Positions 37,195 to 38,833 of a stretch of 64,000 bases of DNA are shown piece by piece. This stretch comes from Candidatus Solibacter usitatus. Lineage in GTDB: Bacteria > Acidobacteriota > Terriglobia > Bryobacterales > Bryobacteraceae. The position numbers were made by a program, and so were the translations under genes. The notes beneath the pieces were generated by a model, which ran no database searches, was not told where the DNA came from, and was given only the letters and a program-made list of their open reading frames with translations. Location: positions 1 to 64,000 of the forward strand of contig JACRBC010000153.1 of NCBI GenBank assembly GCA_016213245.1, read 5' to 3'. How positions within the stretch are numbered: the first letter of the stretch is position 1; every line of letters begins with the position of its first letter.

Positions 37195-38391
37195 CTAGAG
37201 GGCCTTTTGATCCCGCAGGAATTCCTTAATGCAGCGGATCGCCTGCCGCGACCTGTGGTGGTTCTCGATCAGCGCGAAGCGCACGTGCGAATCGCCCGCG
37301 GGTCCGAAGCCGATGCCGGGCGACACCGCCACCAGCGCTTTCTCCAGTAACAACTTCGAGAATTCCAGCGATCCGATGCCGCGGAAAGCCTCAGGCAGCG
37401 GCGCCCAGACAAACATCGAGCCCCGCGGTTTCTCCACCGGCCAGCCCGCCCCGTTCAGCCCCTCCACCAGCAGGTTGCAGCGCTTTTCATACTGCGCCCG
37501 GATCTTCTCTACCTCCGCTTCGCATTCCCGCAGGCCGATGATGGAAGCGATCTGAATGGGCTGGAAGTTGCCATAGTCCAGGTAGCTCTTGATCCTCGCC
37601 AGAGCCTTGATCATCTTCGGATTGCCCACGCAGAAACCCACTCGCCAGCCGGCCATGTTGTAGCTCTTCGACATGGTGAAGATCTCCACCGCTACGTCCT
37701 TGGCCCCCTCCACCTGCAGGATGCTGGGCGCGCGGTAGCCGTCAAAGCCCAGGTCGGCGTAGGCGAAGTCGTGCAGCACCATGGTGCCGTGCATTCGCGC
37801 CATCCGCACCACTTCCTTGAAGAAGTCCAGATCCACGCATACCGTGGTTGGATTGTGCGGGAAATTGAGCAGGATCAGCTTCGGCGGCTTGATGGACTTG
37901 CGGTAGACGCCCTCCAGCGCCGTCAGGAATTCGGCGGGTTTGGAGACCGGCAACGGCACCGCCTCGCCCTCGGCCATGATCACGCCCCACTGGTGGATGG
38001 GGTAGCATGGCGCCGGCGTCACCACGTGGTCGCCCGGCCCGATGACGGCAAACAGCAGGTGCGCCAGCGCATCCTTCGATCCGATGGTGACGATCGTCTC
38101 CGACTCCGAATCCAGCTCCACGCCGTAGTTGCGCGCGTACCGCTTGCAGATCTCGTGGCGCAGGTTCGGGATGCCGCGCGAGACCGAGTAGCGGTGGTTT
38201 TTCGGATTCCTGGCCGCTTCGGCCAGCTTGCTCACAATCGGCCGCGGCGTCGGCCCGTCCGGGTTGCCCATGCCGAAATCCACCACGTCGTACTGCGCTG
38301 CGCGCAGCTTCGCCTTCATCTCGTTCACCACGGCGAAGACATACGGGGGCAGCTTCCCGATGCGGTAAAACTCGTCTGGCAATGAACTCAT
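37195..38391 (-). CDS. alaC: Alanine-synthesising class I/II aminotransferase, AlaC-like
   Basis: 398 residues, fold type I PLP enzyme. It closely resembles AlaC/YfdZ: RIGKLPPYVFAVVNEMKAKL, VVDFGMGNPDGPTPRPIVSK, YSVSRGIPNLRHEICKRYAR and ETIVTIGSKDALAHLLFAVI. It continues with NFPHNPTTVCVDLDFFKEVV and the Schiff-base lysine in IFTMSKSYNMAGWRVGFCVG. It would make alanine from pyruvate with glutamate as donor. LL-diaminopimelate aminotransferase is a related alternative. It is divergent from the rhodanese gene with only 25 bases between starts. Confidence 0.88.
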   Translation of the reverse strand: MSSLPDEFYRIGKLPPYVFAVVNEMKAKLRAAQYDVVDFGMGNPDGPTPRPIVSKLAEAARNPKNHRYSVSRGIPNLRHEICKRYARNYGVELDSESETIVTIGSKDALAHLLFAVIGPGDHVVTPAPCYPIHQWGVIMAEGEAVPLPVSKPAEFLTALEGVYRKSIKPPKLILLNFPHNPTTVCVDLDFFKEVVRMARMHGTMVLHDFAYADLGFDGYRAPSILQVEGAKDVAVEIFTMSKSYNMAGWRVGFCVGNPKMIKALARIKSYLDYGNFQPIQIASIIGLRECEAEVEKIRAQYEKRCNLLVEGLNGAGWPVEKPRGSMFVWAPLPEAFRGIGSLEFSKLLLEKALVAVSPGIGFGPAGDSHVRFALIENHHRSRQAIRCIKEFLRDQKAL

Positions 38392-38416: not shown

Positions 38417-38833
38417 ATGAGGAACTACTGTTGGGCCTGCACCCTGACCTCGGTGCTGGCCTTCAGCTTGGCCTGCGGACAACAGGCCGGCAATGCGTCC
38501 AAGGAAGTGAGCCCGGAGGAACTGGCCAAGCTGCTTGAACAGCCCGGGAAAGTCTACTTCCTGGACGTGCGCGAGCCGGCCGAAATCGAGCGGCTGGGCA
38601 CGGTGAAGGGCTACGTGAACATCCCCATGAGCCAGTTGGAAGCACGTATCCGGGAAGTGCCCAAAGACAAACTGATCGTCACCCTTTGAAGCTCCGGAGG
38701 ACGGGCTGCCCGTGCGGCGGCCATTCTGGAGGAGAAGGGCTTCAAGACGCTCGGATCGTGCGGGCTGGAAAAGGTAAAGCGCCAGGGCGGCGAAAAGCTG
38801 GTGACGGAGAAACCGGCCGCGAAGGGCAAGTAG
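38417..38833 (+). CDS. Exported rhodanese-like protein with in-frame UGA at the catalytic position (candidate selenoprotein)
   Basis: 138 residues if the TGA at 38687-38689 (codon 91) is read through. The N-terminus MRNYCWACTLTSVLAFSLAC is a signal sequence, possibly with a weak lipobox. The rhodanese fold follows: VYFLDVREPAEIERLGTVKG, YVNIPMSQLE, DKLIVTL, then UGA, then SSGGRAARAAAILEEKGFKT. The family loop is C-x-x-G-x-R and UGA takes exactly the Cys place (U-S-S-G-G-R). The same frame stays open and family-like for 47 more codons to TAG at 38831. A SECIS-like hairpin follows the UGA. Alternatives are a nonsense mutation (TGC to TGA) or a sequencing error. Confidence 0.75.
38704..38722 (+). 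promoter_or_regulatory. Candidate bacterial SECIS hairpin
   Basis: GGCUGCC (38704-38710) pairs with GGCGGCC (38716-38722) over 7 bp including one U-G pair. The loop is CGUGC, with G in second place. The loop starts 21 bases after the UGA. As I recall the consensus used for bacterial SECIS searches, spacing is 16-37 bases and a G occupies one of the first two loop positions; both hold. A competing 5-bp hairpin (ACGGG/CCCGU, 38701-38713) exists. Confidence 0.55.

Follow-up and report, generated by a model that had tools for sequence, protein, structure and literature searches.

The gene at positions 38417..38833 (+ strand) of the window, the 64,000-nucleotide stretch of Candidatus Solibacter usitatus DNA analysed here, very probably (about 93%) encodes a single-domain rhodanese that is probably exported and lipid-anchored and has a catalytic selenocysteine (Sec), whose UGA codon would be decoded by SelB and tRNA-Sec under the direction of a SECIS element. 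The gene opens with ATG at 38417, comprises 138 codons when UGA is read as Sec, and ends with TAG at 38831-38833. Under the standard code, the ORF closes at the UGA after 90 residues, exactly where the preliminary description had expected a conventional gene call to stop. Judged by the sequence and the alignment, this TGA (codon 91; 38687..38689, + strand), which is in frame between ...DKLIVTL and SSGGRAARAA..., falls on the catalytic residue of the C-x-x-G-x-R motif; the earlier proposals that it replaces the rhodanese-loop Cys and that the frame stays open for 47 codons beyond it agree with our reading of the sequence and, for the former, with the domain assignment. The read-through product matches the Pfam family PF00581 (Rhodanese) over residues 32-111 (51.7 bits against a cut-off of 22.2, E = 1.3e-13), and the catalytic loop [C/U]-x-x-G-x-R is present as USSGGR, with R96 invariant and G94 conserved in at least 90% of 46 aligned rows.

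The first 20 codons (38417..38476, + strand) specify what we take, judging the motif by eye, to be a signal peptide with a lipobox-like end (..FSLAC followed by G, the Cys being residue 20). Near relatives share an N-terminus of approximately MRxYCWAC and an AC/VC-G/A end, and several more distant members (e.g., L029, L035, and L073) have no Cys at the lipobox position, which in the window protein was placed by eye at the LAC-G end. Judging from this signal-like N-terminus, the rhodanese would be exported. The orthologue L026 (G008:C218), like L052, has another TGA in frame, exactly at the lipobox Cys between ..FGLA and GQ; it may reflect a sequencing error or damage to this copy, or may encode a further Sec.

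To place the in-frame UGA in a comparative context, we aligned 53 family members (L020-L049, L053, L059-L065, and L073-L087), chosen as the better matches by score. The set excludes L050-L052, which repeat L021, L024, and L026; the paralogues L067 and L069, whose aligned codon reads TGC; L066, L068, and L070-L072, which gave no tblastn match; L054-L057, which come from outside the phylum and have TGC or TGT at the site; L058 and L088-L090, matching in the N-terminus only; L091 and L092, representing a CHU paralogue; and many weaker rhodanese matches among those listed. The alignment at codon 91, proposed in the preliminary description as a check, gave TGA in 40 members, Cys (TGC/TGT) in 10, and Ser (TCC/TCG) in 3, so that the UGA stands where some homologues have Cys. 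The UGA members span 23 genus codes and 10 family codes within one phylum. A 93%-identical orthologue in another genome (L050) has TGA at the site as well and, given that the same codon is TGA in 39 further genomes, an error in one genome is not the cause. Among the matches listed for the 61 genomes searched, TGA is found at the orthologous codon in at least 28 genomes, including that of the window. Across 396 genomes of the phylum, a threshold of E = 1e-13 yielded UGA members in 13, that of the window and 12 others; the gene is hence widely scattered in the phylum, and at this threshold it is not common. The latter search also returned 10 matches without UGA, of which L085-L087 alone were fetched; of the seven others, six belong to frames 383-619 residues long. 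At least seven changes among the Sec, Cys, and Ser states of the site are required on a quickly built tree, several branches of which are weak. In three loci of one genus (L088, L089, and L090 in G005, G006, and G001, respectively), a 39-residue ORF occupies the position and no rhodanese part was seen there; this ORF consists of the signal peptide, with 71-76% identity, followed by a different short tail ending in VVVI.

The genome of the window (3.83 Mb in 153 contigs, 78.6% complete) contains the complete Sec decoding machinery, the absence of which the preliminary description had regarded as fatal to its proposal: selA (487.9 bits), selB (354.6), selD (362.2), and tRNA-Sec (78.8) all score above their cut-offs. 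Because the tRNA-Sec model also exceeds its cut-off in 5 of the 14 control genomes, the ARAGORN call of a tRNA-SeC with anticodon tca in the window's genome is a useful second witness. The selD gene itself (L010, G000:C129) contains a UGA, located in GUASKL, which we take to be the known Sec site of SelD. The same genome holds a second candidate selenoprotein (L092/L091, G000:C150:38370-38699), a membrane protein, presumably DedA-like by the appearance of its membrane domain, with a rhodanese part containing YCHU-PNEASSA and a score of 71 bits to NF041203, below the cut-off of 115; its CHU resembles the CxU form already published. With the Sec machinery, a UGA-containing selD, and a CHU rhodanese in one genome, one would expect UGA to be decoded as Sec.

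Among the matches listed for the near set, selB was found in 24 of the 28 UGA genomes, tRNA-Sec in 25, and either one in 27, the single genome with neither (G039) being 64% complete; among the further UGA genomes, 10 of 12 have selB, and the two without it are 72% and 75% complete. We nevertheless set aside selB co-occurrence in near relatives as weak evidence, because selB is present in 51 of the 61 near-set genomes and in 7 of the 9 genomes with a Cys orthologue (again among the matches listed). Since the Cys genomes mostly keep selB, a Cys in them need not mean that decoding was lost. By contrast with these, selB is missing from both genomes whose site encodes Ser (G261 and G418), each of them 99% complete. 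Their rhodanese homologues (L085-L087) carry Ser at the catalytic position in every match read, two of three in G261 and one in G418, and possibly have a non-catalytic role.

The stem-loop described earlier downstream of the UGA was found as stated. It occupies 38704..38722 (+ strand), with 7-bp arms (38704-38710/38716-38722) enclosing the apical loop CGUGC (38711-38715); the stem arm begins 14 nt and the loop 21 nt past the UGA, and G is the second loop nucleotide. With an energy of -12.3 kcal/mol, it falls within the published limits for bacterial SECIS elements (bSECIS), that is, a spacing of 16-37 nt, a loop of 3-9 nt, G in one of the first two loop positions, and an energy of -7.5 kcal/mol or lower (PMC13188914). 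By itself, the fold of the window sequence is unremarkable (z = -1.57, with 12 of 200 shuffles equally good), its hairpin energy is matched by 20.5% of synonymous redraws, and an Rfam search returned no SECIS among matches up to E = 10. In a simple hairpin search, -7.5 kcal/mol was reached by 21 of the 40 UGA members versus 3 of the 13 Cys/Ser members, and folding of single sequences was significant (≤0.05) in just 2 of the 40 UGA members. Proof from single-sequence folding was accordingly rejected as not significant, and comparison across sequences was used instead.

This comparison yielded a result far beyond chance, which is the strongest evidence obtained and, at the level of sequence, decisive for the predicted SECIS. 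At codon +8, where the loop starts, CGT accounts for 33 of the 38 Arg codons of UGA members; at all other positions of these genes, it accounts for 27 of 307 (Fisher p = 2e-24). This background share becomes 12.1% when codons +1 to +14 are omitted, and nine further ORFs of the window give 9.7%. Conversely, Cys/Ser members with Arg at +8 use CGC in all five cases and CGT in none. The CGT loop is absent in 7 of the 40 UGA members: L033, L036, and L078 have AGG, ACG, and CAG, respectively, and no CGN codon, and L065, L079, L082, and L084 have CGC. The stem further includes two pairs, 24-30 and 21-33, each linking two wobble (third codon) positions. These are intact in 36 and 37, respectively, of the 38 distinct UGA rows versus 2 and 3 of the 13 Cys/Ser rows, with pair 24-30 occurring as C-G, G-C, and G-U, and pair 21-33 as C-G, U-A, G-C, G-U, and U-G. 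None of 5000 synonymous redraws reached these counts, the redraw maxima being 27/38 and 26/38, and with a single row per genus (23 rows) the two pairs are kept in 21 and 22 rows, again reached by no redraw. The covariation score of the whole stem is 0.313 versus 0.093 for shuffled alignments (0/500) and a maximum of 0.114 when the stem is slid along the alignment, with the proviso that kinship among the rows inflates scores of this kind. Of the five measures, two based on pair counts stand out less or not at all (double-change pairs are matched by 188 and pair types by 13 of 500 shuffles), and the stem pairs 18-36, 19-35, and 22-32 are kept in just 21 to 23 of the 38 rows. Overall, the covariation supports a bSECIS just past the UGA, and the aligned sequences likewise support read-through of the UGA, the SECIS itself, and the interchange of Sec and Cys at codon 91.

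The same data bear on the alternative that the UGA is a genuine stop and the locus a pseudogene or truncated rhodanese leaving a 90-residue fragment. Such a fragment is precisely what the standard code predicts, and the three relatives with the 39-residue ORF demonstrate that the rhodanese part can be lost at this locus. A decaying gene, however, would not be expected to show TGA at one and the same codon in 40 genomes from 10 family codes, Cys or Ser as the sole alternatives among 53 members, and constraint on the RNA past the UGA. Moreover, in all 11 pairs that we chose for comparison, dN is lower than dS past the UGA (dN 0.04-0.19, dS 0.24-1.63, dN/dS 0.06-0.39); the downstream frame, the lack of conservation of which in relatives had been named in advance as an argument against the proposal, is thus conserved, and we regard the pseudogene explanation as extremely improbable. 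A further possibility is that the UGA is read without selenium, through a code in which UGA means Trp, by plain readthrough, or by a Cys-inserting tRNA. Other residues can indeed be placed by readthrough, yet SelA, SelB, SelD, and tRNA-Sec are all encoded in the genome, the 13 members without TGA have Cys or Ser and never Trp, the window hairpin fits the bSECIS rules, and both Ser genomes are devoid of selB. A selenium-free reading thus appears highly improbable, and incorporation of Sec is the explanation we adopt.

A third alternative concerns what the Sec protein does rather than how it is made, and is a variant of, and compatible with, the Sec-rhodanese explanation: the protein might be a Sec91-Cys115 redox enzyme acting on peroxide or disulfide, with no sulfurtransferase activity. 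Cys115 (38759..38761, + strand), 24 residues past the Sec, is a candidate resolving cysteine by comparison and in the predicted structure. A Cys at exactly +24 is present in 27 of the 40 UGA members versus 2 of the 13 Cys/Ser members; it is absent from all 16 rows of family f3 (11 with UGA), without which the counts become 27/29 versus 2/8. The predicted structure is a rhodanese fold (mean pLDDT 79.8) in which the Sec ends strand 86-91 and Cys115 lies within strand 110-116; in the rhodanese fold, the ends of these two strands would lie next to each other. On the other hand, 13 of the 40 UGA members, including all 11 of f3, lack the +24 Cys, indicating that Cys115 follows clades, and the Arg and Gly of the rhodanese loop are retained. 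On balance, the odds are against the purely redox variant, although it deserves serious consideration.

Under the Sec-rhodanese explanation, SelB and tRNA-Sec would decode the UGA at 38687-38689, directed by the SECIS hairpin 14 nt downstream with its CGU loop motif 21 nt past the UGA. Outside the cytoplasm, the selenolate of residue 91 would accept sulfane sulfur or become oxidised and would then be resolved by thiols; in members with Cys115, resolution could plausibly proceed via a Se-S bond, as suggested by the structural model. The role would be in persulfide/polysulfide handling or thiol-linked redox repair. A more specific scenario, in which an exported Acidobacteriota rhodanese became a two-residue selenoenzyme with a Sec91-Cys115 Se-S cycle, redox or persulfide-reducing instead of a one-residue sulfurtransferase, is speculative and, in our estimation, rather unlikely. 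It would fit the three rows read from family f8, whose genomes lack selB: these have Ser at codon 91 and no second Cys, the outcome expected were the Sec/Cys pair gained and lost together.

The genomic neighbourhood offered no hint of the substrate: across 22 loci, in which the flanking ORFs were chosen by length and judged by eye, no neighbours are shared beyond close relatives, and those shared are confined to the close groups window+L027, L034+L035, L041+L044, and L073+L074. The divergent upstream neighbour (37195..38391, - strand), which from its appearance we presume to be a PLP aminotransferase, recurs at the orthologous L027 locus and lies outside the system. On the same strand, 59 bp downstream, is a gene resembling threonine synthase by appearance, with which the rhodanese gene may be co-transcribed; a promoter scan found nothing.

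Rhodanese-like selenoproteins have been reported before. Five forms are distinguished in one survey, two of them with UxxG (PMC13188914), rhodanese-related sulfurtransferases are listed among metagenome selenoproteins (PMC1088965, PMC2398784), and a sulfurtransferase with homology to a rhodanese-like protein is counted elsewhere (PMC5029168; see also the earlier selenoprotein list in PMC9312934), so that the Sec-containing rhodanese-like proteins mentioned in the preliminary description are in print. For Acidobacteria, the pertinent passages of one study count four selenoproteins and name no rhodanese selenoprotein (PMC1794560), and three are reported for one Acidobacteriota genome in a paper whose main text does not mention rhodanese (PMC12013277). 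Our literature search, mostly at the level of titles, found no paper on this Sec rhodanese family in Acidobacteriota, and the papers listed for Solibacter selenoproteins deal with other topics. The closest counterparts are forms 2 and 4 (PF00581), which likewise have a rhodanese domain with Sec in U-x-x-G (PMC13188914). Compared with these by motif alone, the window family has the lipobox-like signal peptide and, in 27 of the 40 UGA members, a Sec-x23-Cys arrangement, and it spans 10 family codes of a single phylum.

No NCBIfam model scores above its cut-off for the window protein or five relatives. The best selenoprotein match, NF041203 (rhodanese_LYCAU, a rhodanese-related (seleno)protein corresponding to form 3; E = 1.2e-6), gives 28.2 bits where 115 would be required and has CxU where the window protein has UxxG, placing the latter outside that family. 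The closest solved structures, by both sequence and Foldseek, are the rhodanese domains of CoA-disulfide/CoA-persulfide reductases (3icr, 3nta, 8a56), first among them 3icr (sequence E = 5.1e-12, Foldseek 7.4e-9); these contain Cys and are fused to a larger reductase, whereas the window protein is free-standing, with a signal peptide and Sec. The thiosulfate sulfurtransferase PspE (NF007627, 2jtq) is also an exported single-domain rhodanese, presumably periplasmic, but it is a Cys enzyme, and the window protein scores 29.7 bits against the cut-off of 102.

Because the standard-code ORF ends at the UGA and no NCBIfam model exceeds its cut-off, annotation is likely to miss the gene, cutting a complete selenium protein short. 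The family is also a clean case in which covariation at wobble positions identifies a SECIS where folding of single sequences cannot. Rhodanese selenoproteins with UxxG are already known, and the present family, probably exported and often with a Cys at +24, adds to them and gives Acidobacteriota, which are common in soil, a selenoprotein family with good support. Its series of Sec, Cys, and Ser members offers a test of what selenium buys a rhodanese.
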